The notes under the pieces: model-generated | The model's input: only the letters and a program-made list of their open reading frames with translations | Told to the model about the DNA's origin: nothing | Databases searched by the model: none | Shown: positions 14,139-64,000 of the stretch, one piece after another | Layout of the letters: every line of letters starts with the position of its first letter | Numbering within the stretch: position 1 is the stretch's first letter | Made by a program: the position numbers and the translations under genes | Source of the DNA: Isoetes taiwanensis | Lineage: Eukaryota; Streptophyta; Lycopodiopsida; Isoetales; Isoetaceae | Assembly (NCBI GenBank): GCA_021234155.1 | Contig: JAJEKV010000027.1 | Location: 2,725,167-2,789,166, forward strand | Length of the DNA: 64,000 nt | Direction of reading: 5' to 3'

Positions 14139-14179
14139 GTTTGAAGTGGGTTGTATTTTCTCTCACACGGAATTTAAAG

Positions 14180-33420: not shown

Positions 33421-33567
33421 TGCTTAAATGATGCCAGTAATTAAGGATTGCCAATATACCTGAGATTAAGAAGTTGCCCCAAAGAAATGGCACATGAGCA
33501 CATGGGACACAAGATTCAACACATTGCAAATGCACAAACGATCAATCTCAACAACCGGTAGGCCAGC

Positions 33568-34122: not shown

Positions 34123-34149
34123 CTAAGGTTTGCCATGGTGGCCGAAATC

Positions 34150-41799: not shown

Positions 41800-44700
41800 T
41801 GGCCCGATCTGGCTAAGAACAATAAGCCAAGTTTCAATCATGAGGATTGAGCCATTGAACCACAATAATGGTCATTATTGGTATATCAAGATACAAACTA
41901 AGCTCTGTGAGAAGGGATTATGGGACATAGTCTCAAGAGATGAGCCCATTCCAACATTACGTGCAAAGGCACGAGTGCAACTCTAACTGCAGCACAAGTT
42001 GTGAAGGAGAAAACTGCATCACAAGATCCTGCAGTGGTGGAAGCAGAGAGACAATCCCTTAACCAAATGGTTACAGAAAGATTAGGAAGCTAAGAGCAAA
42101 ATTTTAAAATATGTTGATGATACTCTCATGTCAGTAATTGCAAAAGTTGCTACAGCAAAAGAGGCATGGGAACAACTCAAGAAATCCTACAGAAGAAGCC
42201 ATTTCTCAATTCAAGCAAATCTTTACAGCAAGTGATTCCATGGAGGAGTACATAAGAATCATAAGGCAAGTTGCCAAGCAACTACAAGCTATGATGAAAG
42301 ATCTAGATGAAGATCTAGTGTTTGGGGCTTTGTTGCTTAGACTGCCATCAAGCTACAATAATGTAAAGAACATTAATTGAATCTGCAGAGAAAGTGGAAC
42401 TAGAATGGGCATGCCATCAACTTCTCTTTGGAATAATGGAATTAAGGAGGCACCAAGAATATTGGAGCCAAAGAGAAAAAGGTTTTGTTAGCAAACCCAG
42501 AAGAATCTCTAAAGTGTTTTAATTATGATAAAGTTGGACACATAGGGAAGAACTACTCCGAGCTTGACAAAAGGAAAAAAAAGCAGAATTTCAAAGAAAA
42601 GGAGCAAACCAAATACAAGAACAAGGATTCTTTTAAATGAAAGAAAGATGACTCAAAAGCATACAAAGCAAGCAAAAAAAGTTAAAAGGACGATGACGAC
42701 AACGACTCTATTGTACTTTGCTATTAGTGCTTTTGTCTCAACGTAACAGGTCTCCAAAGAGATGTATGATTATACATATTCTCATCATATCTACTTAAGT
42801 TCATACAAATAATTATGGCATGTTTTTTATAGAACAAAGATGCCATAGTCTCATGTCTTATAGCTTCTGACATAATCAAACGTGTCTGATATCTAGACTC
42901 AAGTGCAAGTGATTACATGACCAGGCAAAAGATGTTCATGGATTATCATTTGAATGATAACAGGTAGGAAAGTAAGGATTAAGAAAGAATAGAATAGAAT
43001 AGAATAGAATAGAATAGAATAGAATAGAATAGAATAGAATAGAATAGAATAGAATAGAATAGAATAGTTGGAACTAGTTAGAATAGTTAGGAAAGGGGAA
43101 CTCAATATTGTAGATATTGGAAATATTTCTCTTAAAATTCCACAAGGTATGATCAAATTAAAACACGTTATACATGTCCCAGACCTTGAGGCAAACGTAC
43201 TTTCCATATCTAAGATGGACGATGCACGACATAAGATACATTTTGGTGGGGGAAAATATATTGTCAGGGACAAAAACAAAGATATCATTGCTAAAAGGGA
43301 ACGTGCTCGCAATATTTACAAGCTAAATTGGTCATCCCATCCAACACAACCTTCACTGCTGTAGAGCTGCAGAAATCCAAAACATGGCATGAAAAGATGG
43401 GGCATGTAAACTATCCCATCCTCAAAAAAATTTATTCATATGATATGGTCAAGGTATTGCCCAAGGTACCCAAACGTCATGTTATTTGTGAGGGATGTGC
43501 GCTGGATATGCTTAAACTGAAAGCCTACATGAAAGAAAAAAAATAAAAGAGCATCAAAGCACCTCGAATTGCTTCATATAGATCTGCAGGGACCAGCCAA
43601 CACCAAATCTCTTGAAGGATCCAAACATTTTCTGGTGATACTTGATAACTACAGTAGAAAGAATTGGACATTCTTTCTCAAGCACAAATCTGACGTATTG
43701 GAGATGTTCATCATATGGAGAGCAGAAATAAAAAATTGTATTGAGCTTGTAATAAAGATCATTTGAACTGACCAAGGCAAGAAATTCCTCAACACTTGTT
43801 TCAGTAACTTCTTGCAGGATGCTAGCATTCACCACCAAGATCAGTTGCCTATGGGCACCAACAAAACAGGGTTGTGGAATGCAAGAACAGAATACTACTT
43901 GAATGCGCTCGGATATTAATTTATATGCAAAATATTGATCCCATTTTTTGGGCAGAACCTATTCATATAACATGTTATATTCTGAACATGGTACCAACCA
44001 AGGCAAATTCAGGTATTGTCCCTAACAATTATGATCAGGACACAAACCCAATGTCCAAGACTTAAAGATGTTTTACTGTAAGGTGTATGCACACCTCATC
44101 CAGCAAGAAAGACCTCGAGGAAAATTGTCCTCACGTGCTATTGAATGCATATTCGCTGAGTATGATGAGCATATGAATGGTTATAGACTTTATGTAACTC
44201 CGACAAAGGAAATCATTGTCAGATCGAGTGTTGAATTTGATGAATGCACTTTCATGCTTAAGAAAAGGGGAAAATCCATTGATCTGGAGTGGTATGAATC
44301 AGATCAAGTTACCACACCTCATCCACATGTCATCACAAATGAGGAGCTGACCTGCAAACTAGGTAAACCTGTTGAGACAGATGAAGACACTTGCCATTGG
44401 GCCCAGAGAAGATAGATCTTGATGAGGATGAGATGCTTTTTGCAGTACCCCTAAGGAGATCCAAGGGGACCAGTGAACTGACTGAGAGAACATGAGCATA
44501 TCTCGACCCCAAATCTGGTAAGACTACATCCTACCTTGCCTTTCATAGCAATATTATAGCAGATGAACCTTCTTATTTCCGAGCAACAACGATAGCACTT
44601 ACCATAAGAAATGGCATCACGCCACGCAGGATGAATATCAATCCTTAGTGGATAATGAAACATGGAAGTTGTGCTCTCTTCCTTCTAAGAGAAAGGCTAA

Positions 44701-45471
44701 TGTGCATTGTGAATGGTTGTATAAGCAAGGGAAAATTGGCAGATTCAAACCATGTCTCGTAGCCAAAGGCTATTCTCAGGTACATGGCATAGACTTCCAT
44801 GAGACATTTGCACCAGGGGCACAACTCACTTCCATCAGACTAGTCATTGCTTTGGGAGTTGCTAATGGTCAATCTACAAAGACATAGATGTCAGAATGGC
44901 ATTCCTTAATGGAACATTGAAAGAAGAAGTTTATATGAAGCAAGCACCTGGGTTCATTAAAAAGAGTCAAGAACATATGGTACATAGGCTAGGCTGCAAA
45001 AGCCTATTTATGGGTTTCAACAGTCATCTCGCCAATGGTATCATACCATCTATCAGTTCGATACTCACATGGACTTCACTCGATGCCAAGGAGATTGGAA
45101 TATTTATTGATAATTTCAAGGCTCCTAGGTGATCATCATCGTGCTTTATGTTGATGACCTCATCTTGACTAGCAATTGCAAATTGCTAATACATAACACT
45201 AAAGATGCCTTAAACAATCAGTTCCATATGACGGACTTGGGACCTCTACAAATATTTCCTTTGCATATAGGTTTGCAGAGATGAAGCTAGTGGCAGCATC
45301 ACTCTCCACTAAACGAAGGCCATTCAAGCCCTCTTGGACAGTCGCAACATAGAAGAATGTAAATCTATCTCTACACCAGTCACTACCCAATATTTGAATT
45401 CACTCAAAGGCATTGATACAATGTTTCAAGAGATTGGATACAGTGCCAGATATATCTCAGGTTGACATAAT
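41800..45471 (+). pseudogene. Ty1-copia gag-pol relic, part 1 (gag to reverse transcriptase)
   Basis: In order: gag N-terminal (DUF4219-like 'WYIKIQTKLCEKGLWDIV', about 41880); UBN2-like gag ('TAKEAWEQLKKS', 'LRLPSSYNNVKNI', 42150-42370); a zinc knuckle with two Cys changed to Tyr ('CFNYDKVGHIGKNYSE', about 42520); GAG-pre-integrase ('TWHEKMGHVNY', about 43385); integrase with 'LLHIDLQGP', 'TDQGKKF' just after an in-frame TGA, and 'VVECKNRILLECAR' (43560-43920); reverse transcriptase with 'FKPCLVAKGYSQVHGIDF' and the catalytic YVDD at 45147-45158. Several stops and frame changes occur, and a pentanucleotide microsatellite splits the gag-integrase interval. It continues beyond the solo LTR at 47027. 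Confidence 0.9.
42986..43065 (+). repeat. (AGAAT)16 microsatellite inside copia
   Basis: Sixteen uninterrupted copies of AGAAT. It lies between the zinc-knuckle region and the GAG-pre-integrase region of the copia relic, where the protease would be expected, so it expanded after the element died. Confidence 0.97.
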
Positions 45472-47026
45472 TGTGACGCTCCTTATACTATATACGACAG
45501 CTCGTCGTATACATCGAAGGACCCTCCCCATCTACCGGCTGCCCGTCGTATGGGCCCTCTGTCTAACCCCTGTCTGGGATAACTAAACAGACGAGTTGAG
45601 GACGCGGAGGTGTCATTCCGTCCCATCCTCTAGGTCCCTATATCAGTGGAGGCAACATACAACATAAGCACTAATAACAATACAACACTACCTCGAAGGA
45701 TAGTCAATATCCATACCATCATAACATGTACAATACACCATCAACATCAAAACATCAAAGGGCCTCATACCCAGGGCTCAAGACTCAATGGGGAGTCGAC
45801 TGACAGCTGAGGCTCCAGATAGATTAGACCGAGTTATGGTAATGACTTGGGCTGGCAATACACAATGGCTAGGGTCGACCACTCCATTCGTCCCTTCTAT
45901 ACATTGCAGATAGGCTAAATTAGGCTATGTCGTGACTGTAACCTGCGGGAGACGTAATCCCATGGTACCACCCAACGAGACTACTCCAGGTTGCATTTCC
46001 GTAGTCCGATGAGGTAGGAGGGGTTGCATCTCTTCCTCTCAGAGTGTGGTGGCTCCATGGGCAGCTAGAGGATCGTGGCGACACACGTCCATACCCGACT
46101 GAACTCATCAAAACAAGAGCCAGACCGACACCTGTAGCCCTTGAGAATCAGGGCGACACCTTTGACCCAGGAAGTGTCAGACTCATACTCGACCCACATG
46201 AAGTGACCGACTATAAGCCTAGCCCACTACAGGTCCCCAGCAATTGCGTTCAATAAGGACCTCCCTCCACTTTGCCACTGACTCCATTATGTGGTGCTCA
46301 GTCACTCCGTAGCCTCCTTAGTCAGGTGGGCTCTATGCACAGGCCGCATAATAATGGTAACTAATGGGTATAAACTAGGAGCATCATCTACTAATATTTA
46401 CTAGGTCTCTACCCCCCTTCACAAGAGGTGCACTACTCGATCAACCAATCTCATATCAACATAATCTTGATAATAAATGAGAATAACAACATACATCTAA
46501 CTTATAGTTAGGATTCATTGATTAGGATTCATATTTAGAACAATAGGTTCTAGAATGGCTCTACTAGAATACAACATGCAACTCAACTGGAATCTACAAA
46601 ATACCTGCTCCTAATGCGCTACCACTAGCTCCCTGGTTCTCCATCTCTAGCAGGTGTTCGAGAAGATGATCCTCCTCTGCTGCTACAACTCAGGCTGTCG
46701 AAGACGGTCTTCAAATCAGAGCTATGATCGCGAACGACTGGGAGTTTGGTAGAGCCAAAACTGGCTAGAGTTTAGGGTTTAGCCTTTTATATATTAGGGT
46801 GTACATGAATGCCACTTGGCTCTCATAGGTGCGTCTATATGGCAGTTTGCCTATAAGATGAGGCCATGTGGAAATGGCTTCTTACCTTAGGTTGGCTAAG
46901 TTATGTAAGTTACTTAGTCAACCCCCCACATTGGTCGCATATATTAAGTTTACTAATGTAAAGTTGTATGGTGATGTGGCCATAAAATATACGTATTTAC
47001 ACCATATATTTTAGGGGAACGTCACA
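45472..47026 (-). mobile_element. Solo LTR of a gypsy-like element, inserted in copia
   Basis: On the minus strand it begins 'TGTGACGTTCCCC' at 47026 and ends 'GGAGCGTCACA' at 45472, about 1555 bp. It is flanked by ataat (45467-45471) and ataac (47027-47031), a near-perfect 5-bp target duplication. Removing the LTR and one duplicate restores the copia frame across the site (...VDI|TLSRYLEH...). It has a TATA box on the minus strand and shares several blocks with the LTR at 23639. No internal domain remains, so it arose by LTR-LTR recombination. ORFs within it are not genes. Confidence 0.85.
46785..46797 (-). promoter_or_regulatory. TATA box of the solo LTR
   Basis: Minus-strand 'TAATATATAAAAGG' lies about 230 bp into the LTR, the same relative position as in the LTR at 23639. 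Confidence 0.6.
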
Positions 47027-47539
47027 ATAACCTTAAGTCGATAACTTGAACATCCCCAACCTCAACATTGGCAAGGCCTCAAAATGTCATTGAGATACCT
47101 TGAAGATACCAAAGGCGTAGGATCACTTTTCACACATATAGCTCTCTCACTCGGAGGGCTATCTTTGATGTTGCCATGCAGACACCAAGGACAAGAAATC
47201 AACACGGGTGGCTTCGCTTTCTACTAGAAGAGGGAGCGGTCTAGCAGGAAGCAAAATGCCACTGCTGCCTCAACTGTGAATCCGAGTACATAGCCCTTGC
47301 TTCTGCTGTTAAAGAGGCCATTTGGCTCAAATGATTTTCGAAGGAGCTTAACGCAGTGCAAGAGTAGTCCATCACAACAAAGATACATTGTCACTTGCTA
47401 AGAATCCCACAAATTGATCAAGGCTAAACACATCGAAGTTCAATATCACTTTACTCGTGGAAAAGATTGCGTAAGGAAAACTTGATGTGCAATACCTCGG
47501 AACGAATAAGCAATTTTGTTATTTTGATTTGAGGGGGAG
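47027..47539 (+). pseudogene. Ty1-copia gag-pol relic, part 2 (RNase H end)
   Basis: Continues the reverse transcriptase frame after the solo LTR: 'LEHPQPQHWQGLKMSLRYL', then RNase H with 'CESEYIALASAVKEAIWLK', the usual C-terminal copia sequence. A polypurine tract 'gagggggag' at 47531-47539 directly precedes the 3' LTR. Three further copies occur in the tandem units, at 49332-49849, 51610-52129 and 53922-54437. In units 2 to 4 the RNase H reading ('SSLTLEGYADVAMQVT', unit 2) is closer to intact than here. Confidence 0.85.
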
Positions 47540-47789
47540 TGTTGGGACACATTGTAAAGGTTTAACAAACATACATACCAAAACAATAGTTTGAAGTTGT
47601 TGACCTAATTAGTGTTACCAACTTAAAAATCCGGCATCTAATTTTAGCATGCTCCTAAAATCGAGGGACAACCGATATGCCATCTCAAGGGTCAAGATTG
47701 CCTCTTCCTTGAAGCTAGGAGAGCTTACCTTTTGTTTGATAGTGTAACCTTTTCTATTATTCTCTTTGAATAGAAGCTGGTTGTTTTCA
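47540..47789 (+). mobile_element. Ty1-copia 3' LTR (unit 1)
   Basis: 250 bp, starting 'tgttgggacacattgtaaag' after the polypurine tract and ending 'gctggttgttttca'. Matches the 5' LTR at 41478-41769 at its ends. No target duplication between the outer flanks was found. Confidence 0.85.
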
Positions 47790-48429
47790 ATAACAACAAG
47801 AAAAAGAAACCAAATCCAATTGCTTTATCACTCATTTGCAACCTCAAAATATGCAAGCTTTACAAAGAAACGTGACCCTTACCCAAATTTTCGTTCCAAA
47901 TGTGCAAAGTTCCATTGCAAATTTTGTTCTAATCTAATCAAGCAACGACAAAAAATAAAAATGAAAGGAATGCAAAAAAGCAAGTTACTCTTTACTATAA
48001 ATATTTTTGCCCTAGTCCCATATGCAAAACAAAACCATACCTCTTCTTGCAATGGCAAACATGCTCCCCATTACAATGTACAATGCCACCGGAAAAAAAA
48101 AGAAAAAAAGAAAAAAAAAAGTGCCTCTGTTTGGCATGGAAAAAATACAACGTGTCCATTAACTGAGCCCCTATCATCGACCATTGTCCCTAATCAAATG
48201 TCTCCGATTTAAAAACGTCTCTTTAAAACCTTCTAGATGGTATCTTTAAGACGATAATTTTTGGCATTAACGGGAAAAAAGTTGTAACACATTTCATCCT
48301 TGGCACCATTGATTTGGTTTAGACCCTTTTATGTGCATTTAGCCTCCAATAATCTTACGTCATGAACTTCTCACACACATATCCCATAGCACAAGCAAGA
48401 CTGTGGTAGGTGCATGGATAAATTGCATT

Positions 48430-50726
48430 CTCATCAAAACAAGAGTCAGGCCGACACCTGTAGCCCTTGAGAATCAGGGCGACACCTTTGACCCAGGAAG
48501 TGTCAGATCCATACTCGGCCCACATGAAATGACCGACTATATAAGCCTAGCCCACTATGGGTTCCCAGCAATTGCGTTCAACAAGGACCTCCCTCCACTT
48601 TGCCACTGACTCCATTATGTGGCGCTCAGTCACTCCATAGCCTCCTTAGTCAGGTGGGCTCTATGCACAGGCCGCATAATAATGGTAACTAATGGGTATA
48701 AACTAGGAGCATCATCTACTAAAGTTTACTAGGCCTCTACCCCCCTTCACAAGAGGTGCACTACTCGATCAACCAACCTCATATCAACATAATCTTGATA
48801 TACATCTAATTTATAGTTAGGATTCATTGATTCATATTTAGAACAATAGATTGTAGAATGGCTCTACTAGAATACAACATGCAACTCAACTAGAATCTAC
48901 GAAATACCTGCTCCTAATGCGCTACCACTAGCTCCCTGGTTCTCCATCTCTAGCAGGTGGTTCGAGAAGATGATCCTCCTCTGCTGCTACAACTCAGGCT
49001 GTCGAAGACGATCTTCGAATCAGAGCTATGATCGCGAACGACTGGGTTTGAGCTTGGTAGAGCCAAAACTGGCTAGAGTTTAGGGTTTAGCCTTTTATAT
49101 GTTAGGGTGTACATGAATGCCACTTGGCTCTCATAGGTGCGTCTATATGGCAGTTCGCCTATAAGATGAGGCCATGTGGAAATGGCTTCTTACCTTAGGT
49201 TGGCTAAGTTATGTAAGTTACTTAGTCAACCCCCCACATTGGTCGCATATAAGTTTACTAATGTAAAGTTGTATGGTGACGCGGCCATAAAATATACGTA
49301 TTTACACCGTATATTTTAGGGGAACGTCACAATAACCTTAAGTCGATACCTTGAACATTACCAACCTCAACATTGGCAAGGCCTCAAAATGTCATTGAGA
49401 TACCTTCAAGATACCAAAGGCGTAGGCATCACTTTTCACCCAGATAGCTCTCTCACTCTCGAAGGCTATGCTGATGTTGCCATGCAGGTGACACCAAGGA
49501 CAAGAAATCAACACAGTGGCTTCTGTTTTCTACTAGAAGAGGGAGCGGTCTAGCAGGAAGCAAAATGCCACTGCTGCCTCAACTGTGAATCCGAGTACAT
49601 AGCCCTTGCTTCTGCTGTTAAAGAGGCCATTTGGCTCAAATGATTTTCGAAGGAGCTTAACGCAGTGCAAGAGTAGGACATCACAACAAAGATACATTGT
49701 CACTTGCTAAGAATCCCACAAATTGATCAAGGCTAAACACATCGAAGTTCAATATCACTTTACTCGTGAAAAGATTGCAGAAGGAAAACTTGATGTGCAA
49801 TACCTCGAGCAATGCATAAGCAATTTTGTTATTTTGATTTGAGGGGGAGTGTTGGGACACATTGTAAAGGTTTAACAAACATACATACCAAAACAATAGT
49901 TTGAAGTTGTTGACCTAATTAGTGTTACCAACTTAAAATCCCAAGATCTAATTTTAGCATGCTCCTAAAATCGAGGACAACCGATATGCCATCTCGGTGG
50001 GTCGATTGCCTCTTCCTTGAAGCTAGGAGAGCTTACCTTTTGTTTGATAGTGTAACCTTTTCTATTATTCTCTTGAATAGAAGCTGGTTGTTTTCAATAA
50101 CAACAAGAAAAAGAAACCAAATCCAATTGCTTTATCACTCATTTGCAACCTCAAAATATGCAAGCTTTACAAAGAAACGTGACCCTTACCCAAATTTTCG
50201 TTCCAAATGTGCAAAGTTCCATTGCAAATTTTGTTCTAATCTACCGCTGCAACGACAAAATAAAAATGAAAGGAATGCAAAAAGCAAGTTACTCTTTTTT
50301 TACTATAACATTTTTTGCCCTAGTCCCATATGCAAAAACAAACCATACCTCTTCTTGCAATGGCAAACATGCTCCCCATAACCATGTACAATGCCACCTA
50401 AAAAAAAAAAAAAAAAAAAAAAAAGTGCCTCTGTTTGGCATGGAAAAAATACAATGTGTCCATTAACGAGCCCTATCATCGACCATTGTCCCTAATCAAA
50501 TGTCTCCGATTTAAAAACGTCTTTTAAAACCTTCTAGATGGTATCTTTAAGACGATAATTTTTGGCATTAATCTGAAAAAGTTGTAACACATTTCATCCT
50601 TGCACCATTGATTTGGTTTAGACCCTTTTATGTGCATTTAGCCTCCAATAATCTTACGTCATGAACTTCTCACACACATATCCCATAGCACAAGCAAGAC
50701 TGGTAGGTGCATGGATAAATTGCATT
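48430..50726 (+). repeat. 2.3-kb tandem unit 2
   Basis: 2297 bp. Contains the partial solo LTR (to 49331), the RNase H end, the copia LTR (49850-50096) and a flank. The A-tract at about 50400-50424 is a nearly pure poly(A), whereas in units 1, 3 and 4 it is interrupted by G. Confidence 0.95.
49850..50096 (+). mobile_element. Ty1-copia LTR copy (unit 2)
   Basis: 247 bp, same termini as the unit 1 copy. Duplicated as part of the tandem unit and not by transposition. Confidence 0.9.
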
Positions 50727-53016
50727 CTCATCAAAACAAGAGTCGCCGACACCGTAGCCCTTGAGAATCGGGCGACACCTTGACCCAGAAGTGTCGATCC
50801 ATACTCGCCCACATGAAATGACCCCATTATATAAGCCTAGCCCACTATGGGTTCCCAAAGAATTGCGTTCAACAAGGACCTCCCTCCACTTTTGCACCCG
50901 ACTCCATTATGTGGTGCTCGATCACCCATAGCCTCCTTAGTCGTGTGGGCTCTATGCACAAAGTCGCATAATAATGGTAACTAATGGGTATAAACTAGGA
51001 GCATCATCTACTAAAGTTTACTAGGCCTCTACCCCTTCACAAGAGGTGCACTACTCGATCAACCAACCTCATATCAACATAATCTTGATATACATCTAAT
51101 TTATAGTTAGGATTCATTGATTCATATTTAGAACAATAGATTGTAGAATGGCTCTACTAGAATACAACATGCAACTCAACTAGAATCTACGAAATACCGC
51201 CCCTAATGCGCCACCACTAGCTCCCTGGTTCTCCATCTCTAGCAGTGGGTTCGAGAAGATGATCCTCCTCTGCCGCTACAACTCAGTCGCCGAAGACGAT
51301 CTTCAATCGAGCTATGATCGCTGGAACCACCCGGTTTGAGCTTGGTAGAGCCAAAACCGCTAGAGTTTAGGGTTTAGCCTTTATATGTTAGGTGTACATG
51401 AATGCCACTTGGCTCTCATAGGTGCGCCTATATGGCGTTCATTTATAAGATGAGGCCATGGAAATGGTTTTACCTTAGGGTTGGCTAAGTTATGTAAGTT
51501 ACTTAGTCAACCCCCACATTGGTAGCATATAAGTTTACTAATGTAAAGTTGTATGGTGATCGCAGCCAAAAAATATCGTTTACACCGTATATTTTAGGGG
51601 AACGTCGCAATAACCTTAAGTCGATACCTTGAACATTCCCAACCTCAACATTGGCGAGGCCTCAAAATGTCATTGAGATACCTTCAAGATACCAAAAGGC
51701 GTAGGGCATCACTTTTCACCCGTGATAGCTCTCTCACTCTCGAAGGCTATCTTTGATGTTGCCATCACGGTGACACCAAGGACAAGAAATCAACACAGTG
51801 GCTTCTGTTTTCTACTAGAAGAGGGAGCGGTCTAGCAGGAAGCAAAATGCCACTGCTGCCTCAACTGTGAATCCGAGTACATAGCCCTTGCTTCTGCTGT
51901 TAAAGAGGCCATTTGGCTCAAATGATTTTCGAAGGAGCTTAACGCAGTGCAAGAGTAGGACATCACAACAAAGATACATTGTCACTTGCTAAGAATCCCA
52001 CAAATTGATCAAGGCTAAACACATCGAAGTTCAATATCACTTTACTCGTGAAAAGATTGCAGAAGGAAAACTTGATGTGCAATACCTCAGAACAGACAAG
52101 CAATTTTGTTATTTTGATTTGAGGGGGAGTGTTGGGACACATTGTAAAGGTTTAACAAACATACATACCAAAACAATAGTTTGAAGTTGTTGACCTAATT
52201 AGTGTTACCAACTTAAAAATCCGGCATCTAATTTTAGCATGCTCCTAAAATCAGAGGACAACTGATATGCCATCTCGGTGGCCGCATTGCCTCTTCCTTG
52301 AAGCTAGGAGAGCTTACCTTTTGTTTGATAGTGTAACCTTTTCTATTATTCTCTTGAATAGAAGCTGGTTGTTTTCAATAACAACAAGAAAAAAGAAACC
52401 AAATCCAATTGCTTTATCACTCATTTGCAACCTCAAAATATGCAAGCTTTACAAAGAAACGTGACCCTTACCCAAATTTTCGTTCCAAATGTGCAAAGTT
52501 CCATTGCAAATTTTGTTCTAATCTACCGCTGCAACGACAAAATAAAAATGAAAGGAATGCAAAAAAGCAAGTTACTCTTTACTATAACATTTTTGCCCTA
52601 GTCCCATATGCAAAAACAAAACCATACCTCTTCTTGCAATGGCAAACATGCTCCCCATAACCATGTACAATGCCACCGGAAAAAAAAAGAAAAAAAGAAA
52701 AAAAAAAGTGCCTCTGTTTGGCATGGAAAAAATACAACGTGTCCATTAACTGAGCCCCTATCATCGACCATTGTCCCTAATCAAATGTCTCCGATTTAAA
52801 AACGTCTCTTTAAAACCTTCTAGATGGTATCTTTAAGACGATAATTTTTGGCATTAACGGGAAAAAAGTTGTAACACATTTCATCCTTGGCACCATTGAT
52901 TTGGTTTAGACCCTTTTATGTGCATTTAGCCTCCAATAATCTTACGTCATGAACTTCTCACACACATATCCCATAGCACAAGCAAGACTGTGGTAGGTGC
53001 ATGGATAAATTGCATT
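50727..53016 (+). repeat. 2.3-kb tandem unit 3, with many CAG/CTG-site differences
   Basis: 2290 bp. The left 900 bp differs from units 1, 2 and 4 by many small deletions or rearrangements, most of them at CAG or CTG. The right part (about 51780 onward) is nearly identical to unit 4. The copia LTR copy is at 52130-52377. Confidence 0.95.
52130..52377 (+). mobile_element. Ty1-copia LTR copy (unit 3)
   Basis: 248 bp, same termini as the unit 1 copy; essentially the same as the unit 4 copy. Confidence 0.9.
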
Positions 53017-55320
53017 CTCATCAAAACAAGAGTCAGGCCGACACCTGTAGCCCTTGAGAATCAGGGCGACACCTTTGACCCAGGAAGTGTCAGATCCATA
53101 CTCGGCCCACATGAAATGACCGACTATATAAGCCTAGCCCACTATGGGTTCCTCCCAAAGAATTAAGCTCAACAAGGACCTCCCTCCACTTTGCCATCGA
53201 CTCCATTATGTGGCCGGGCCCCTCCATAGCCTCCCCTTAGTCGTGGGGCTCTATGCACAGCCGCATAATAATGGTAACTAATGGGTATAAACTAGGAGCA
53301 TCATCTACTAAAGTTTACTAGGCCTCTACCCCCCTTCACAAGAGGTGCACTTCTCGATCAACCAACCTCATATCAACATAATCTTGATATACATCTAATT
53401 TATAGTTAGGATTCATTGATTCATATTTAGAACAATAGATTGTAGAATGGCTCTACTAGAATACAACATGCAACTCAACTAGAATCTACGAAATACCGCC
53501 CCTCCTAATGCTACCACTAGCTCCCCCGGGTTCTCCATCTCTAGCGTGTGGTCTCGAAGATGATCCTCCTCTGCTGCTACAACTCAGGCTGTCGAAGACG
53601 ATCTTCGAATCAGAGCTATGATCGCGAACGACTGGGTTTGAGCTTGGTAGAGCCAAAACTGGCTAGAGTTTAGGGTTTAGCCTTTTATATGTTAGGGTGT
53701 ACATGAATGCCACTTGGCTCTCATAGGTGCGTCTATATGGCAGTTCGCCTATAAGATGAGGCCATGTGGAAATGGCTTCTTACCTTAGGTTGGCTAAGTT
53801 ATGTAAGTTACTTAGTCAACCCCCCACATTGGTCGCATATAAGTTTACTAATGTAAAGTTGTATGGTGACGCGGCCATAAAATATACGTATTTACACCGT
53901 ATATTTTAGGGGAACGTCGCAATAACCTTAAGTCGATACCTTGAACATTCCCAACCTCAACATTGGCAAGGCCTCAAAATGTCATTGAGATACCTTCAAG
54001 ATACCAAAGGCGTAGGCATCACTTTTCACCCAGATAGCTCTCTCACTCTCGAAGGCTATGCTGATGTTGCCATGCAGGTGACACCAAGGACAAGAAATCA
54101 ACACAGTGGCTTCTGTTTTCTACTAGAAGCGGGAGCGGTCTAGCAGGAAGCAAAATGCCACTGCTGCCTCAACTGTGAATCCGAGTACATAGCCCTTGCT
54201 TCTGCTGTTAAAGAGGCCATTTGGCTCAAATGATTTTCGAAGGAGCTTAACGCAGTGCAAGAGTAGGACATCACAACAAAGATACATTGTCACTTGCTAA
54301 GAATCCCACAAATTGATCAAGGCTAAACACATCGAAGTTCAATATCACTTTACTCGTGAAAAGATTGCAGAAGGAAAACTTGATGTGCAATACCTCAGAA
54401 CAGACAAGCAATTTTGTTATTTTGATTTGAGGGGGAGTGTTGGGACACATTGTAAAGGTTTAACAAACATACATACCAAAACAATAGTTTGAAGTTGTTG
54501 ACCTAATTAGTGTTACCAACTTAAAAATCCGGCATCTAATTTTAGCATGCTCCTAAAATCAGAGGACAACTGATATGCCATCTCGGTGGCCGCATTGCCT
54601 CTTCCTTGAAGCTAGGAGAGCTTACCTTTTGTTTGATAGTGTAACCTTTTCTATTATTCTCTTGAATAGAAGCTGGTTGTTTTCAATAACAACAAGAAAA
54701 AAGAAACCAAATCCAATTGCTTTATCACTCATTTGCAACCTCAAAATATGCAAGCTTTACAAAGAAACGTGACCCTTACCCAAATTTTCGTTCCAAATGT
54801 GCAAAGTTCCATTGCAAATTTTGTTCTAATCTACCGCTGCAACGACAAAATAAAAATGAAAGGAATGCAAAAAAGCAAGTTACTCTTTACTATAACATTT
54901 TTGCCCTAGTCCCATATGCAAAAACAAAACCATACCTCTTCTTGCAATGGCAAACATGCTCCCCATAACCATGTACAATGCCACCGGAAAAAAAAAAAAA
55001 AGAAAAAAAAAAGTGCCTCTGTTTGGCATGGAAAAAATACAATGTGTCCACAACTGAGCCCCTATCATCGACCATTGTCCCTAATCAAATGTCTCCGATT
55101 TAAAAACGTCTCTTTAAAACCTTCTAGATGGTATCTTTAAGACGATAATTTTTGGCATTAACGGGAAAAAAGTTGTAACACATTTCATCCTTGGCACCAT
55201 TGATTTGGTTTAGACCCTTTTATGTGCATTTAGCCTCCAATAATCTTACGTCATGGACTTCTCACACACATATCCCATAGCACAAGCAAGACTGTGGTAG
55301 GTGCATGGATAAATTGCATT
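53017..55320 (+). repeat. 2.3-kb tandem unit 4
   Basis: 2304 bp, the last unit. It ends at 'aaattgcatt' (55320), beyond which the sequence is unique. Short clusters of CAG-site differences appear at about 53150-53260 and 53497-53560, while the rest matches units 2 and 3. The copia LTR copy is at 54438-54685. Confidence 0.95.
54438..54685 (+). mobile_element. Ty1-copia LTR copy (unit 4)
   Basis: 248 bp, same termini as the unit 1 copy. Confidence 0.9.
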
Positions 55321-55410
55321 AACAAAAGACATGAATGTATATAGCAATGCAGTTGATAGTAAAAGCATTTTCAAATAAGTACTGCACACTATTCAAAAGT
55401 GCTTGAGAAG

Positions 55411-56190
55411 ACACACTGCCCCCTTCAGGCAAGTGGTCTCTGCAGCTTCCAGGTTCTCGATGGCGCTCGGTTTGGACGTGGACATCATGACACACCGCCC
55501 CCCTTTCCGGGCAAGTGGTCTCGCAGCCTTCCGGGTTCTCGATGGCGGTTTTGGGCGGGACATGGAGCTCACTTCCCAAGGTTTAGGGTGCTTCGGGCGT
55601 GGTGCACCGGGCCAGAGGGGGTGAATGCCATTGTGAGTCGGGTTTAGGTTTGGGTGTGAGCCCTCTCTCGCCCTTGTTGTGGCCTTCATCGCGGAGACGT
55701 GGGAGCATTGTCGCGGGTTATGCCCTCACTTGCGCCGCCCCGGGATTGGGTTAGGGGCTCGCTTTGGTGAGATTGACTAGCCGCCAGCTCTTTGCTTCAT
55801 GTGTATCCTCGATGCTTGGCGCTCTTGCGTGACAAACCTGCATCTGTGGTGTGGGCTTGGTTGGTGTGGTTGATTTGAAGCGGTTTGTGGATCTTTCGGG
55901 GATCCAGACTTTTACCTCTTTGATTCCACGACTTCGGTACAAAGCTTATTTCAAAGCTTTCGGTGTTCCCGGGATTAGTAGAGCTGAGTTTGCCATTTGG
56001 CGTGGACTTCTTAGTGTTGTAGATGGTGATGGCCTGGGTTTGTACGGCCAGTGAGTTGCAGTTTTTCGTGAGTTTGTTGTAGAGTGTCGAGGTATCATTG
56101 CTCTTTGGGGGCGCTCTCCTTCCTCCTCACTTGCTTTGTAACATTACCATTCTTTTAATATATTGATGACACAGTTCTTCAACAAAAAAA
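55411..56190 (+). mobile_element. Poly(A) retroposon (5'-truncated LINE or retrocopy) with 16-bp TSD
   Basis: The insert ends 'acagttcttcaac' plus a run of A and is flanked by exact copies of 'aaaagtgcttgagaag' (55395-55410 and 56191-56206). A poly(A) tail with a 16-bp target duplication is diagnostic of LINE-machinery insertion. The 3' end ('ttttaatatattgatg' before the tail) is like that of plant L1-type LINEs. The 5' portion is GC-rich and has a two-copy tandem of about 78 bp ('gcaagtggtctc ... ggttctcgatggcg' at 55430 and 55509). No reverse transcriptase motif is visible, so LINE tail versus retrocopied transcript is undecided. Confidence 0.85.
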
Positions 56191-56634
56191 AAAAGTGCTT
56201 GAGAAGAGTGCCCATTATAGACAAATTTATACTAGTGTATTTTAACTCTTTAGAGAAGGCCTAGAAGGCCTGCGGGATTTTGGAATAAAAGGGCCAAATC
56301 TGGTTAAATCTTTTATAAGTTTACCTATTAATAAAAACACCAAGATATTTTCCCATTCCTAAGAAATGGTTTGTTGTACACTTCTTCCATACAAAAACTT
56401 CAGATAAAACGGTCCAATGGCAGGGTTGAATGAGTATAACTTAGAGCGAATCATGGCCAACAATAATATTGCATGCAGAATGCTCTACTAGGTTTGATGG
56501 CATCATTTCGAGATTGCATGTACGTGTTCTAGTTTTCTTTTATTCCTTTTCACCATACTAAGCATCTTTATATTAGTAGTTTATCACCGATAAACTATTC
56601 ATAAACTACCAATAAATCAATGAAGTTTTATCTG

Positions 56635-56965
56635 TTGCATATCTGAATCTGCTGATTCTGTCTGCCTATCATAGCATTCTTAACAGATGTTATCATTGGA
56701 AGACTCAATTATTGGATTGCCATCAATCAGAAGGCAAAAAAGTCTGTTACGTAATTTACCCAAATCTGTGTTTAAATCCACTTTTGTGAAACAGCCATGT
56801 GAATGGATGCCTCGCCCTTGAGTTGCATGGCAGAAAACTTTGTGACTTTGTTAAGATACTCAAACAATGCATCTGGACTCAGTCAATTTGAAAAATACTC
56901 TCCTCAAAACTGTGTGTTATTGCTATCGTATTTGCATTCATAAAGAAGTGAAAAAACTATATGTA
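56635..56965 (-). pseudogene. Decayed partial copy of the ZZ zinc-finger gene
   Basis: Read on the minus strand, 'CYDRQTESADS' corresponds to 'CYDRETKSADW' of the gene at 58511-59251. Other segments ('catggcagaaa', 'tactcaaacaatg', 'gtgttattgctatcg' on the plus strand) match it at 59020-59155 in the same order. The first zinc-binding pair is lost and stops occur. It is a truncated paralogous copy about 2 kb downstream of the gene in the same orientation. Confidence 0.75.
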
Positions 56966-56969
56966 AAAT

Positions 56970-58145
56970 ACAGAATGACAATGAATATGTGAGCAAAACA
57001 AAACTGGCAAAGTATAAAACCAAGTTGGGATGGCCGAATAATTAGGGAATGGGATGCTTATCCTTGCCTATCTTCCTGGCTTCAACATTAAAGATTATTT
57101 TTCGTGGCATTGGCTGCAGAGATTATTGATGGTACAGACCGTTTATTCGCTTACATTTATTGTATCAGCAACACGTAGCTTTTCTTTTTCTTGATTGACT
57201 TAACAATCTGTTCCTGGATTGTTGGGAGTGGTGCAAGCACATTTTCAGTAGAATGCCTTTCTGTTTTCATGCACCTTCACCCACGTTTACTGAAATGGGA
57301 TATATTTCGCTGTGACCTGTCACAAATATAGGTAGCAGGAAATAAATATGAGGATTCCTTATTTGATAGAGGGGAAAGGTTCCCCCACATTTCAGCAGCT
57401 GATGAACTTTCAGGACCAGAATCAAACTATATTCAGCACGCTGAATTATGTGCTTTACCGAGAATACAGTGTGTCTATTAGTATAACAAGCTCTCGTCGT
57501 AAAAACCAGGAGACTCCTTTGGCCAACTACAAAGGATGGTAAACAGGCTGTGAGAAATCTCAAGCTCAATATGGTCAAAAATTTGTTAAAGTAAGATGTC
57601 CACATGATCCTATTATAAACAATACATTTGATTATGCAGTTATCCATTTGGCATGCATATTGCTTAGCTCATTCATTTTTTGAAAATAAGTAGAGCAATT
57701 AAGGTTGGGATGTGCAAGGCAAATATTGGTAAGGTGTGCTCTCCAATCTATGAACACAAAAATAAGCGAGTGAAATGCAGCTGCAATGATATAAATTACC
57801 TGCATCTGTATAGCCACAGCCATCCGTGATTACTAACTTAAAATTGTCTAGACACACGCTAAAACTGTGCAACAAGCCTGCTGCATTAACTTTAAGTTGC
57901 CTGATTGAAAAATACATACCTATGCTAGTTAGACATGAATATATATCGAAATTTAATTTGCAAGGTGCGCTAAGTGTTATTAATACTTTTCCATTTGCTA
58001 AATGGCATGCACCTATTCAAAGTCCAACCACGCCTTTCACTGACAAGGATTGAGAATGTTACACTAATGGAATGCACTCTAATAGTGAAAGTTAAAAGCA
58101 ACTATGAATAACGTCAATAAAGAAAATGAAGACTTACAGTGAAAA
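56970..58145. other. Intron or intergenic sequence downstream of the ZZ exons
   Basis: ORFs on both strands at 57267-57647 (minus, 126 codons, no motif) and 57348-57542 (plus). Further exons of the ZZ gene may lie here on the minus strand but none could be placed with confidence. Confidence 0.3.
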
Positions 58146-58150
58146 CTTAC

Positions 58151-59260
58151 CTAGCAAACACCCTTCCTGCGGATGAGTTTTCCAACCGGTCTCTTCCCAC
58201 CTATCTGCATAATGAAAATACGGCAGGTTACTTTTCTTTTACTAAAATCACTTCAATACGTTGGCAGACTGCCACGCTCCAGAGATTCCGAAGATCCTAA
58301 CCAAAAGGGCACTGTTGAACACCCCAGAATAAATGAGAATATGACATGTAACCCCGTCAGCAGTATCAAAGCAAAGAACCCCAACTAGGCTTAAGAGGAC
58401 CTTTGAGTTTATGGATCAAAATGGCTGTGTCTTGATTTACCTTTTTACCCTACTGTTCTTGTTGGAATCATCACCAATAAAAGCTTTACGACTCACACAA
58501 TGCATTGCTGTTATGGGTTTGAGCTAACATACCGATATAGAAATGCACGGGTCAAGACAGCTGTCACAGCAACTCTAATCAAAATCTCTGCATATAGGCT
58601 CCATCGATCGGTGGTATCAAGTAGAGAACCTTCAGTGGGTGCCCTTTCTTTATCTTCTGTAATTGGATTGGAATGGCTTGCAGAGATCTGACTTATTAAG
58701 CAAGAGGTGCTTCCTGAGGCAGGCTGATACTGAGATGATTTTGTATGTGGGTATTCTAGACCTCGAGACTGGCAAGATATTGTTTGTGGTAAGTTTGGGG
58801 ATCTAAGTGGTACAAGTACCCAATCTGCTGATTTTGTTTCCCTATCATAGCATTCTTGACAGATATTATGATTGAAAGAAACAGAAGACTGATATCTCAG
58901 GCCAATGATTGGAACTTCATCACAGTGTAGACAAGAAAAGCCATTGTGCACACCAAAATATTCTTGGATCCATTCTTGTGGATCAGATATGTGATCAAAT
59001 TCCTCTCCCCTGTCTTCCATGGCAGAAATCTTTTGATCATCAGGAACAATCATTCCACCAAAATAGTCAAACAATGGATTTGAATGAACTTGAAATACAT
59101 TATGTTCCAAACTGCCAACACCATGTGCTATTGCTGTCCTACTATCATTCATAGCTGTGACATTCCTGTCATCAACGCCTTTTCTCCGCTCCACAAAATC
59201 ATGTTCATATAATGGGCTATCATAAATTTCAAATAGGTTCTGATCTTTCATACTTGTGTT
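58151..59260 (-). CDS. ZZ-type zinc-finger protein (partial gene model, at least two exons)
   Basis: The main exon runs from about 59260 to 58533 on the minus strand. It can start at ATG 59251 or continue from an upstream exon, since an acceptor CCATAG|AACACAAGT lies just before and is in frame. The centre holds a ZZ domain: 'GFSCLHCDEVPIIGLRYQSS' then 'NICQECYDRETKSADW', supplying two CxxC pairs that bind zinc; ZZ domains recognise peptide ends or N-degrons, as in NBR1. A hydrophobic stretch 'LIRVAVTAVLTRAFLY' ends the exon. A donor (ATCG|GTATGT) and a 54-bp exon at 58204-58151 (acceptor TTATGCAG, donor GTAAGT) join in phase. Later exons were not found. Function unknown; regulatory signals not seen. 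Confidence 0.6.
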
Positions 59261-59269
59261 CTATGGACA

Positions 59270-62080
59270 AGAGTAAGAAGTGCAAATACAATATCAAAGA
59301 TGGGAAGCCCATCCACATCAAAGATGCATGGCTGAACAAAAGAAATCTCAGAGAATAGAAATTGATTCTTGAGAAATGGAAAGTGACATGGACACGATCA
59401 TTGAAACAATGATTAAATTGGGTATGAAGAAAAATCACAAAGAGGATTGGCATGGCAGATCAAATGGATCACAAAAAGAAGAATGGAAAAGTAGGTTCCT
59501 GAGATGTGGAAAGAATGTGAAGGACGTTAAAATGGAAAGGCGTTCTACTTTCCACTACCAAAGGAGCCCGGATCATTCACGTCTGCCAAAAGAAACTGCT
59601 CTGGCTGATATAAAACATCTGATCACCAAACAAATGTCTGGGTGTCAAATGAAATTGAAATTACCAGTAATAATGTCTACGTGTCTGGCTATGCAGGACA
59701 GGACTGTTGCCTAAAGAATGGCAGCATGCATGAGCCATGAAATTATCTTGTTTCGACGGATGCAGACTAGGCGGGGAACCCTAAAGTGACAATTTTACTT
59801 CACGAAGGCATTTATCTGCATACCTGACTCCGGTGCTCTCCATTCTTTAAAATTACGAGGCCATTAGCCACCTTCGCATGACCGCACTCCGGTGCTCTCC
59901 ATTCTTTAGAATTGCGAAAAGCCATTAGCACCTTGACATATGGAGGCACATTATGCTGACGTATACAGGTGATCCATCAAATGACATGTCATAAGGTTGA
60001 CAATGAAATCACACTTATGGCCGACCATGATCCTATCCTATATTATAAAACCGTGGCGTCGGTCTGTGCGCCCGATCGACGACCGAGATTGCGCCAATGT
60101 CCCTGCCCCCGCCGGACGGCCCAGATTTGTTCGTTTGTCCCTCCTTCGCTATGGAGGATCCAGATTTGGCCACGTGGCAAAGAGAAAGGAGGCGTCGTTT
60201 CATGATTTTAACGTGGCATAGTTTGGGGTTTGCGAATTTAACTCGAGCTCATGCTTCCGTTCCTCTATTTTGTTACAGAGAGGAGACAGAGCAACAGAGA
60301 AACCACGTCTTTTAGGCCCCCTTACAAGGGTCCGGCCAACGGATCCACCTTCACTCCTCGGATTAGTCGTTAGATATAGCGAAATGTTGGCTTCAGATCC
60401 AAATTTTCTGTTGTCTTCGGCTCCCCTATCCTCCTTTTCTATTAGCTTTTTAGGGTTTCTCACCAAACAATCCTCCCCACGACATCAGAAGGCCGTGTTA
60501 ATTTTTCCCCTAGCTCTTACTCAGCTATGGCAGGCTTTCTTTAGTTCGTCAATTTTTCCTCTCGCTCTTACTCAGCTATGGCACAGCTTTCTAAATGGGA
60601 TTGGGCTCCAGCCGAAAAAATGCTGAAAAAATGCTGGAGCACTAAAGGAGCTTTCTGCCGAATATTTATTTTGACGCCCAAAGGATCAAAACTGTTGATA
60701 GATTGGATCGATTGTTTTTTTTTGAAAGGGGGACCGTAAGTGGGAGTCTCATCTTGATTTGTAAATCTTGAATAAATCGTGGATAAGAACATAAATTCTG
60801 TGAATCGTGGCCAGTACTGCCTTTCATGGCACCGGCTTTATGCTAATACAACGGATGTGCATAGATACGATGGCAGAAAAACAGGGGCAATTAAGCAGAT
60901 GATGCTAGCAGAGCTACAGAATTAATGCTCTGATATGGTGGTTGCAGAGCACATCCTGAAGCAAATCCTACATCCTGGTGTGCATCTGTGGCCTTCAAAA
61001 GGTGGATGGCCATGCTTATGAGGCAATCACAATTTTCATATGGCAGCTTGGGAGCTTGGGAGATCTGAGCTTTCACCTTCAATTTATATGCAGGTTCTAC
61101 AATACCTAGGGAGATCTTCCACCAGAGAAATGATAGTACATTTAGAACAAAGAAATGATCATTTAGATTTCTATGATCAGGTACCAAACCTGGAGGATTC
61201 GAGATTAAACCACTGTCAATGACTTAAATCCCGCTTGCTTTGAGAAGGGTGCTCCAGTTAGAAGCTTCCGGCATGTCTGGAAAGGCTACTGCACCAAGAA
61301 ACATCTTTTGGATGCAATTTTTCGCTTGAAAATCCTACTGTTGCAAATAATGGAACATGTTTCTTCCTGAGCGGAGGTATGTTTTGAGCTGAAATGCCTA
61401 ATTTTATGGTCCTCCTACGGTTAGTATGATCGTGTTATCAAACCCGAGGATTCAGATTAAACCATCATCAATGACTTAAAAGCGGATGATATTTTCATGA
61501 TGTGTTTGTGGTAAGGAAACAAGAGTCATTTTCTTCATTGTTTTTCTGTCATATTAAGCTCTACATCTTTGAGATCCTAATTGATTATGTAGAATGGCTT
61601 TCTTTTTCTCTTGCCTATTTTCTGAACAATATTCCTTCTTCTATGTGGCTCACGTTTTATTAAATGACACATATTTGTTTAGGCCATGAGATGCAGCTAT
61701 ATATCCAACACGAATGCATAGCTATGTTTGAATTGTTCTGCATTGATGCATTGAAGTGTTTCTTTTATATGCCACTGTAAATAACTTGAGATGTTTGTTC
61801 AGGAATCTTTCAAAATCCAGCACCATACATCGAATATGGAAAGGATTCTCTTAACGAGTGGAAGCACATACATTGTAGAACCATGCATATTGCGGGAGTA
61901 TGGGCATAATTTCCACACGCAGGAATCTTTTTGCAAAGGATCAGGATGCATAAATGATCTGGAGTATTGGTTGAATGGCTCACGTGGGGCATAACTCCAT
62001 TTGCTTTTTTCCCTTGCAGGTAATGATGAGCAAATTTATGGGTGCTTTTGAATGTAGTTTTATGAAGCTTCAGATATATT
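59270..62080. other. No recognised gene; tandem duplications
   Basis: Plus 59376-59714 (112 codons, Lys-rich) and plus 60270-60626 (118 codons) are unassigned. Tandem duplications occur at 59832-59935 (about 62 bp, 'actccggtgctctccattct' twice) and 60505-60590 (about 54 bp, 'gctcttactcagctatggca' twice). At about 60035 'cctatattataaaaccgtgg' resembles some plant Helitron starts, but no 3' hairpin-CTRR end was found. Confidence 0.35.
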
Positions 62081-62088
62081 GAGAAGTA

Positions 62089-62622
62089 TTGAACAATGCT
62101 ATCTCTACTATGGATACAGGAATAGATGAAGCACTTATGCGTCCTATGTCTTCTCCTATGTCTTCTGCTTATGGTTGTCAGGATCCTACAGATATTGATG
62201 TCTTTTCTGAGGCTCAAATTGTCATCGAAACACTTCAATGCAAGGATTGTTCCATGTCTCTTGAATGGTTTCACGAGAACAGACAGTGGCTGAAGGAATT
62301 CAAGATGCAGAAGTAAATTATTGGTTTAAGCCTGTCTTTCTGTTTTTCTTTAATCATAAATCATAGAGAGCAGAGTGCACTTGAATTTAAATTGCGGATC
62401 CAAGAATTCATAGAGCTGGTACGAAAGGAGAAGATGGTTGATGCTATTTTGTATGCTCGTCCATCACGGGGCAGAACACACATGAAGGATTTACAACATG
62501 TCGTAGCCACACTAATATCCTATTTAGGATCCCATTGTAATCAAGAAGATAGAACTTGCTCGAAAAAGTGTAAGGCTATCTTGGATTGTAATAGCTCTAC
62601 AATTACAAACTTAAAGAAGTAA
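62089..62622 (+). pseudogene. MAEA/GID9-like CTLH protein, partial
   Basis: Exon 1 (to 62312) encodes 'DIDVFSEAQIVIETLQCKDC' and 'SLEWFHENRQWLKEF'. Exon 2 (62367-62622) encodes 'LEFKLRIQEFIELVRKEKMV' and 'THMKDLQHVVATL'. Together they match the CTLH-to-CRA stretch of MAEA/GID9, a RING-like subunit of the GID/CTLH ubiquitin ligase. The 54-bp intron (AA|GTAAAT ... AATCATAG|AGAGCAG) joins in phase, giving KMQKEQSALEFK. Family proteins are about 390-410 residues; here the N-terminal coiled coil, a recognisable LisH and the C-terminal RING-like domain are absent. In place of the LisH end is a Met/Pro/Ser-rich 'LMRPMSSPMSSAY'. Probably a truncated copy. Confidence 0.75.
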
Positions 62623-63080
62623 AAAAGTCCTGCTCCAAGAAGAGTGAAGTCTTATATTGTAATAGCTCTACAATTACAAATTTCAAGATGTAAAAAAGCT
62701 TCGTTTAAAAGGTGGTATTTGATTATGGGATTTGAATATACGCAAGGTTTTACCTTTATGATATACTTCTTCAATCTTCTCTACATATAGGGTCACCATG
62801 TCATAGAGAAATATTTGGCTTCATAAGCAACTATCGCATGCATGATGTGGCTTCATAAGCAACTATTGCATAATGCATGCATGATAAGATAAGATGAATT
62901 TTTACGTCCACTGGAACCCAACGGGATAAGAACATGCATAACTTGAAGATGTGGAAAAGATTCATTAATAGGCCTCGCAATGTAACATATAATGCAAATT
63001 CACTATGTTTTCAACCTAAGCTTACATGAAAACAAATCATGTATAGTCCACTGTTGAAATATTGTGGCATCATTGACACA
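62600..63080 (+). repeat. Short duplications downstream of the CTLH fragment
   Basis: 'ttgtaatagctctacaatta' occurs at about 62585 and 62658, the first copy overlapping the end of the reading frame. 'ttcataagcaactatNgcat' occurs at about 62819 and 62850. These are local tandem duplications; no gene. Confidence 0.75.
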
Positions 63081-63085
63081 AAATA

Positions 63086-63457
63086 ATGCCTCCGCCACTG
63101 CTACCTCCACAGCCCATGCGTCCAGGCTTCTCATATGGGTTAAATAATTCACAAGTAGAGGTATCGGCTTCCCCATCAACGGCCATAGCTCCGGTGCCAT
63201 TGTCACTCCTGCTTTCACCTGCAAATCCAAACCCTATTTCGCAGCAAAGGATTTCTTCTGTGCCCGCCTTTCCATTTTCGAATTTGGGTGGGGATAATAT
63301 GTGTACTAATGGGCTGGAATCGCCTGCCAGTGTAAATATGACGCAGTCAGCACAATTTGTTGCTATCGGAGAAGTATCAGGCAGTGTTTTAAGCTCCAGA
63401 CCAGAATCGTCGTTGCCTCTTTCGCCTTTAGTACTGGATTTGGGTTCTCAAGCATAA
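63086..63457 (+). CDS. Hypothetical Pro/Ser-rich protein
   Basis: 123 codons from ATG to stop, rich in P and S: 'MPPPLLPPQPMRPGFSYG', 'FPFSNLGGDNMCTNGLES', ending 'SPLVLDLGSQA'. The composition resembles a disordered region of a plant nuclear or regulatory protein. I recognise no domain. It may be an exon; no convincing splice signals were assigned. Its 3' flank carries a tandem duplication. Confidence 0.35.
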   Translation: MPPPLLPPQPMRPGFSYGLNNSQVEVSASPSTAIAPVPLSLLLSPANPNPISQQRISSVPAFPFSNLGGDNMCTNGLESPASVNMTQSAQFVAIGEVSGSVLSSRPESSLPLSPLVLDLGSQA

Positions 63458-63466
63458 TGCAGGCTT

Positions 63467-63625
63467 ATGTTTCAGCAGCTTTGGCAAATGCACAGGATTT
63501 TTCTTTTCCAGATCTTAGGTCCTGATTTTCTTCCTGGCTACTAGAAATGTTTCAGCAGCTTTGGCAGATGCACAAGTTTTTGCTTTTCCAGGTCCTGATT
63601 TTCTTCCTGGTTACTAGAACATCCC
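63467..63625 (+). repeat. ~80-bp tandem duplication
   Basis: 'tgtttcagcagctttggcaN' then 'atgcaca', then 'tttccaggtcctgattttctt' type sequence with 'cctggNtactagaa', occurs twice in order (about 63469 and 63549). Confidence 0.85.
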
Positions 63626-64000
63626 TTTTTTCTCTTTGTATATACACATACTTTGCAGTCTAGAGCTAGCCGAGCGATCCGAGACATCAAAGCAAAAACC
63701 AATTTTGTCTATGCATCCCAGGGCGAGGCAGTTCTCAACAGTAATCCCTGCTTTTTTGAATTTCCTTCTTCTGAATTTCATATACAATCACATAGAAAGC
63801 CCACCAACGGTGGGCAATTTTCTAGTCCTAAATTCTAATCCACCAATCAAATGTCTGTTTTTTGGATTCTTGGGCACTCCCTTTATCACACTTGGGGTGC
63901 CCAGGATGCAATATTTTCTGCTTCAAAAGCTGCGCAGATTAGAACAAATTAGCACTGGATTCACGCGGATTGGAGCTGGTTTTGCAAAAAGAACTCATAA
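63626..64000. other. No recognised gene
   Basis: One 61-codon plus-strand ORF (63653-63838) without motifs; the window ends in AT-rich sequence. Confidence 0.35.

Follow-up and report, generated by a model that had tools for sequence, protein, structure and literature searches.

How far the differences between near-identical tandem copies reflect real divergence, and how far they were introduced in sequencing and assembly, is the question raised by the locus described here. The window (the whole 64 kb stretch of DNA analysed, G+C 41%) is part of contig C1031, one of 1110 contigs in an assembly totalling 1.66 Gb; the retroelement pieces and the genome size suggest that it comes from a plant. 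Alignment of the units defines four head-to-tail tandem copies of approximately 2.3 kb each, spanning 46104-55320. Units 2, 3 and 4 hardly differ except in discrete patches. Differences between the copies were originally predicted to concentrate at CAG and CTG trinucleotides and to result from long-read error at methylated CHG sites.

Table 1. Features of the window, with the state of CAG/CTG sites in each (o/e, observed over expected)
Feature	Coordinates	Strand	Observation
Tandem unit 1	46104..48429	+	Left part (to ~47115) apparently clean and really diverged; right part bears putative errors
Tandem unit 2	48430..50726	+	Left half taken as reference state; putative errors from ~49807 rightward
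Tandem unit 3	50727..53016	+	Putative errors in left part; right part without private differences
Tandem unit 4	53017..55320	+	34/38 private columns within alignment columns 101-600
Unit 1, putative error-bearing part	47116..48429		10/21 CAG/CTG of the C146 copy altered
Unit 2, putative error patch	49807..50726		6/9 unit 3 CAG/CTG altered; continues past the unit boundary into the unit 3 patch
Main putative error patch (unit 3 left)	50727..51800		20/25 CAG/CTG altered, 13 gaining CG
Unit 4, putative error patches	53146..53570		8/8 unit 2 CAG/CTG altered
Two short repeats	55410..55563		4/5 CAG/CTG of the first become CCG, CGG or CG in the second (read from alignment)
Test stretch outside the tandem	33459..35083		27/37 C146 CAG/CTG altered; CG 23 to 34
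Control stretch	43087..45728		2/67 CAG/CTG altered relative to C146, both plain transitions; o/e 0.61-0.99
Block between depleted domains	12501..15500		CAG/CTG o/e 0.76-1.30; CG o/e 0.22-0.59
Mostly normal CAG/CTG domain	56001..64000		CAG/CTG o/e 0.64-1.40

Differences between the tandem units

The predicted concentration is borne out by a count per context. With unit 2 as the reference, the 20/25 CAG/CTG sites altered at 50727-51800 compare with 183/1087 for all trinucleotides, and only 1/1088 circular shifts gave a value as high. Events touching CAG/CTG number 21 of the 49 in this main patch; random placement of 49 events put 6.4 +/- 2.4 of them there, and 21 was reached in 0/20000 trials. 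Counts that need no alignment point the same way, with CAG+CTG falling from 25 in unit 2 to 8 in the unit 3 patch and CG rising from 28 to 38. All of the changed CAG/CTG strings quoted in the original prediction are present in the sequence, and where it had estimated about 13 differences between units 2 and 3 in the first 260 bp, about 10 of them at CAG or CTG, we count 16 events, 10 at or beside these trinucleotides.

When sites are counted by strand, 40/50 CAG/CTG are altered in the main patch compared with 54/373 CHH. Beyond 2 bp from any CAG/CTG, CHH sites are altered in 31/312 cases and CAA in 2/42, while CG sites are altered at 24/56, against 16/52 in the in-array control (the left part of unit 1). 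The 28 events elsewhere than CAG/CTG comprise 8 touching CG, 11 of other kinds and 9 changes of homopolymer length; homopolymer-length errors (9/49 events) are what the known class of nanopore errors at 5mC motifs predicts.

The differences are patchy. Every one of the 82 alignment columns private to unit 3 lies in the first 1200 columns, and 31 of the 32 private to unit 2 lie beyond column 1400. The patches of the two units form a single stretch of approximately 49.8-51.8 kb that runs across the unit boundary. Its pattern ends abruptly near 51.79 kb, and units 3 and 4 keep all 13 of the unit 2 CAG/CTG sites from 49514 to 50431. The limits of the patches were chosen by eye, after the differences had been seen. 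Recurrence in unit 4 and between the two retroposon repeats had also been claimed, and both are found (8/8 sites at 53146-53570, and 4/5 at 55410/55489). The right part of unit 1 behaves similarly, with 5/9 CAG/CTG altered in comparison with unit 4 and, at 47116-47495, 6/13 in comparison with unit 2.

Altered sites yield a narrow set of products. Typically CAG becomes CG or CAAAG, and CTG becomes CG, CCG or CTTTG; the CG products keep the C and the G and lose the middle base. By labels assigned automatically from the 11-base neighbourhood (as also for 33459-35083 and 5S below), CG is gained at 13/20 altered sites in the unit 3 patch and at 5/8 in the unit 4 patch, and changes of deamination type number 0/20 and 0/8, respectively. 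From the C146 copy to the right part of unit 1 there are 10 altered sites, 5 with CG and 2 of deamination type. The unit 2 positions 48606, 48627, 48651 and 48954 are altered in both units 3 and 4, often to different strings, and units 1 and 2 also show differing strings at the same altered site.

The left part of unit 1 gives a very different result. Compared with unit 2 it carries 33 events, of which 19 are single transitions; 0/21 CAG/CTG sites are altered, and the CG (16/52) and CCG (3/6) sites that vary do so as deamination predicts. Judging from the sequence, this part is the local picture of real divergence. Ordinary paralogue divergence, rich in transitions and without CAG/CTG bias, fits the left part of unit 1 but fails for the error patches.

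Copies outside the tandem

Two close copies of the unit lie outside the window, one (L003) at C1031:2719444, some 5.7 kb ahead of the window, and the other (L006) at C146:221374. Over 914 compared bases L006 matches unit 1 at 99.9% identity. Among the 21 CAG/CTG that unit 2 carries in the compared stretch, none is altered in L006, 8 are altered in L003 and 17 in unit 3. It follows that the CAG/CTG state is more likely the older one and unit 3 the odd copy. L003 itself goes from 21 to 16 CAG/CTG, and CG does not rise in it (24 to 19).

A single unit in similar flanks is present on contig C146 and at C1031:2715000-2724999 (L011 1-2894; L013 1351-8967). As both places carry only one unit, the fourfold tandem is special to 46104-55320, where it may be either real or an assembly expansion.

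Contig C146 matches the window in pieces from 33.5 to 48.4 kb. At 33459-35083 the local CAG/CTG o/e is 0.32-0.51, and CAG+CTG drops from 37 in C146 to 16 in the window; 0/1621 shifts matched the 27/37 altered sites, and in the reversed comparison 6/16 of the window's CAG/CTG are altered in C146. The 27 altered sites divide into 11 that gain CG, 6 of deamination type and 10 others, and transitions account for 35 of the 78 events in the stretch. Elsewhere the comparisons do not all point the same way, and CAG/CTG changes run in either direction at 38372-39555 and 42151-42987. The piece at 39548-41128, which includes a block of low CAG/CTG (the 40 kb block), is 99.5% identical to C146 with 2/23 CAG/CTG altered, and its low CAG/CTG could be either an error shared by both contigs or a natural property. 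Relative to L013, the top differences are at CGC and CCG both at 43036-46103 (CAG/CTG 20/80) and at 55321-57516 (CAG/CTG 23/62).

CAG/CTG depletion across the window

Measured against a first-order expectation, no trinucleotide in the window is depleted as strongly as CAG/CTG, which stands at 0.62 of expectation; the next lowest is at 0.84. Of the 64 one-kb blocks, 26 fall below 0.5. In these low blocks, which were chosen on CAG/CTG, the pooled value is 0.37 and the next lowest trinucleotide reaches 0.83. CG o/e is 0.67 in the low blocks and 0.50 in the 14 high blocks (CAG/CTG at least 0.8); taken over the 64 blocks together, the CAG/CTG and CG values show a negative correlation (rho -0.39, p 0.0015). 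An excess of CAAAG/CTTTG was sought in the low blocks and was not found (1.02, 0.97, 1.05).

The CAG/CTG domains change sharply near 12.5, 15.5 and 56 kb. The sharpest contrast with depleted neighbours is seen at 12501-14000, where CAG/CTG o/e is 1.14-1.30 and CG o/e 0.22-0.24 (sub-windows starting at 12501 and 13001).

A further array at 8927-12236 has a period of approximately 330 bp and copies ~71-86% alike, with a weak and uneven CAG/CTG effect. No clear CAG/CTG effect was seen in this 8.9-12.2 kb array or in the repeats at 5.4, 31.1 and 63.5 kb, which are too old or too short.

5S rDNA and U2 snRNA

The 5S rDNA of this assembly offers an unrelated sequence for comparison. With 47 matches listed, eight regions on contigs C13, C907, C1103 and C1041 were examined, and 90 copies were used, each spanning no fewer than 85 bases of the yardstick sequence, which 10 of them match exactly. 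Alterations at the four CAG/CTG sites affect 206/360 cells (57%) compared with 25% for all trinucleotides. Only AGA is higher (62%), and its one site shares bases with a CTG; CGC and CCG reach 45-48%, and ATG, ATC and AAC 2-4%. At one site the same CTG to CG change, identical in form, occurs in 46/90 copies, a figure to be read knowing that 5S variants may be real. CAG to CAAAG also recurs, as in units 3 and 4, although there is no excess of CAAAG window-wide. Altered copies have a mean of 1.34 CAG/CTG vs 3.85, and CG without overall gain (8.97 vs 8.92). The variants could be real families within the array, but the similarity of the products in unrelated sequence would favour a systematic error.

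A match to U2 snRNA at 27677-27871 (Rfam RF00004, 85.5 bits), whose 5' end fits well, was tried as an independent yardstick; two of the three CAG/CTG that the family consensus has in its 5' half are altered, in what is maybe a pseudogene. The stem-loop that follows the 5' end has lost pairs at conserved CAG/CTG positions.

Origin of the differences

The context bias, the products, the patchiness, the intact sites in the outside copies and the depletion across the window are all direct observations. Together they suggest, with a probability that we put at roughly 0.85, that the differences are mostly sequencing artefacts of a nanopore type, arising from basecalling error at symmetric methylated CHG sites and retained in poorly polished patches. 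The cause named in the original prediction gains support from the products, the homopolymer changes, the differing strings at one site in sister copies, the outside copies, the loss of CAG/CTG with higher CG and the 5S copies, all of which agree better with miscalled methylated CHG than with deamination or ordinary divergence; from these we infer that the DNA was methylated, that the platform was of nanopore type, that training was biased and that polishing failed. Several observations weigh against this reading: most events of the main patch (28/49) lie away from CAG/CTG, and CG sites are altered too; changes of deamination type occur at 33459-35083 (6/27), where transitions are frequent (35/78), and in the right part of unit 1 (2/10); 39548-41128 is almost unchanged from C146 in spite of its low block; neither L003 nor the altered 5S copies gain CG, and the 5S variants could be real families; the 8.9-12.2 kb array responds weakly; the low blocks lack a CAAAG/CTTTG excess; and the comparisons with L013 differ most at CGC and CCG.

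CHG methylation is expected in plant repeats, and CAG and CTG carry 5mC in plants. Native plant DNA methylated at these sites would have been read by a nanopore-type basecaller whose training presumably held 5mC mostly in CG context, that is, before G. Such a basecaller might render the signal of methylated CAG/CTG as CG or CCG and less often as CAAAG. A CHG site of this kind is symmetric, with CAG on one strand and CTG on the other, and would bear 5mC on both, so both strands would err at the same place and agree on the palindromic CG, and the consensus would keep the error. Polishing may then have mended some stretches and failed in others, failure being expected in near-identical repeats; this unevenness would leave error patches in near-identical copies that ignore unit boundaries.

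Of the alternatives, a long-read error that is not driven by methylation is improbable. Indel noise in patches of low coverage, or a weakness of the basecalling model at CAG/CTG itself, would agree with the homopolymer-length changes and other indels and with the discreteness of the patches, and methylation is after all deduced. However, the difference between 40/50 CAG/CTG and 54/373 CHH, combined with kb-scale domains that switch sharply, demands a cause specific to both context and place.

Real divergence of the tandem copies, with methylated CHG acting as hotspots through deamination of 5mC, seems very unlikely. It has in its favour the CHG methylation expected of plant repeats, a slight rise of TAG/CTA in the low blocks (1.17 vs 1.08), the 6/27 changes of deamination type at 33459-35083 and the 39/360 5S cells labelled in this way, although at least 30 of the latter are the longer CCCAAGAT/CCCAAGAC form. 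But deamination predicts CAG to TAG or CAA and CTG to TTG or CTA, products that account for 0/20 altered sites in the patch of unit 3 and 0/8 in that of unit 4. It should also reduce CG, yet CG is raised in the main patch and the low blocks, and where transitions do dominate, in the left part of unit 1, 0/21 CAG/CTG are altered.

Small biological deletions at methylated CHG, for example through error-prone base excision of 5mC by DNA glycosylases, are scarcely credible: the strong CAG/CTG context and many small indels would suit a deletion process, but excision should remove the C or its partner G instead of the middle base that the CG products drop, leaves the homopolymer-length changes and the border-crossing patch unexplained, and is opposed by the identical change in 46/90 5S copies. 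Deamination and glycosylase excision were both rejected on the products, the CG forms among them keeping the C and the G and losing the middle base, as neither process predicts.

Relation to known errors and consequences

A basecalling artefact at methylated CHG would belong to a known kind. The closest likeness is to Oxford Nanopore errors at the Dcm motif (CCAGG/CCTGG; Wick et al. 2019, PMC6591954), where 5mC likewise sits inside CAG/CTG, the error survives into the consensus and homopolymer errors occur alongside. According to that report, ~70% of consensus errors in Klebsiella under the then-current default models fell within Dcm CCWGG motifs, where a human-trained model also erred. That system is bacterial and concerns CCWGG only, whereas here CAG/CTG is affected generally, in plant-like DNA, and the main product is CG. 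Methylation-induced ambiguous bases in bacterial nanopore assemblies (PMC11610573) resemble the present case as systematic assembly errors that the authors ascribe to native DNA modification. They differ in being purine/pyrimidine ambiguities at RA/TY-type motifs, with no fitting known methylation motif, compared with CAG/CTG to CG here.

Low default nanopore accuracy on native plant DNA has also been described, with plant methylation outside the training set named as a likely cause (PMC9749173, PMC7501810), and species-specific models raise accuracy in plants (PMC9749173). CHG does not appear in the main text of PMC9749173 and has one mention, concerning methylation detection, in PMC7501810; the available text of either gives no context-specific product. 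In the literature searched we recognised no description of CAG/CTG read as CG in plants, which does not imply that none is in print. What we describe would seem to be an artefact of known kind in a plant-like CHG setting, now with a clear product signature.

If the differences are artefacts, at least the 26 low blocks can no longer be relied on for frameshifts, stops, pseudogene calls or the divergence of repeats, and the problem probably reaches other methylated regions of the assembly as well, among them the 5S rDNA. Loss of CAG/CTG with gain of CG would then give plant assemblies an inexpensive indicator of quality that needs no alignment. The original prediction had warned that many frameshifts and stops of the window may be artefactual; this possibility is supported for stretches low in CAG/CTG, where they are unfit as evidence of decay, and does not extend to the blocks with normal CAG/CTG (14/64), which are not questioned on this ground.

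There is an even chance, in our estimate, that CAG/CTG loss with CG gain constitutes a record of methylation written into the assembly, with kb-scale domains at o/e ~0.2-0.5 marking CHG-methylated chromatin. If this is true, nanopore assemblies of plants could yield rough CHG methylomes with no need of the raw signal; such assemblies would also carry a predictable bias in the ages of repeats, in pseudogene calls and in estimates of copy divergence.

Coding pieces

Pfam scans for frameshifts in coding elements matched 3/20 pieces (taken from 45 open stretches of at least 110 aa), and a further scan matched 2/5 pieces, one of them already matched before; this is too little for use. Pieces resembling a gypsy-type element lie at 21745-22860, with chromo and Tf2-1 SH3 matches that are both under the curated cut-off and the rest assigned by eye. 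At 44035-44415, in sequence with CAG/CTG o/e of 0.61-0.71, there is a retroviral polymerase SH3-like domain (PF25597, E 4.3e-20) that is copia-like by eye. An open stretch on the minus strand at 58511-59260, within the normal CAG/CTG domain, contains a ZZ zinc finger (PF00569, E 9e-08) and is perhaps part of a gene.
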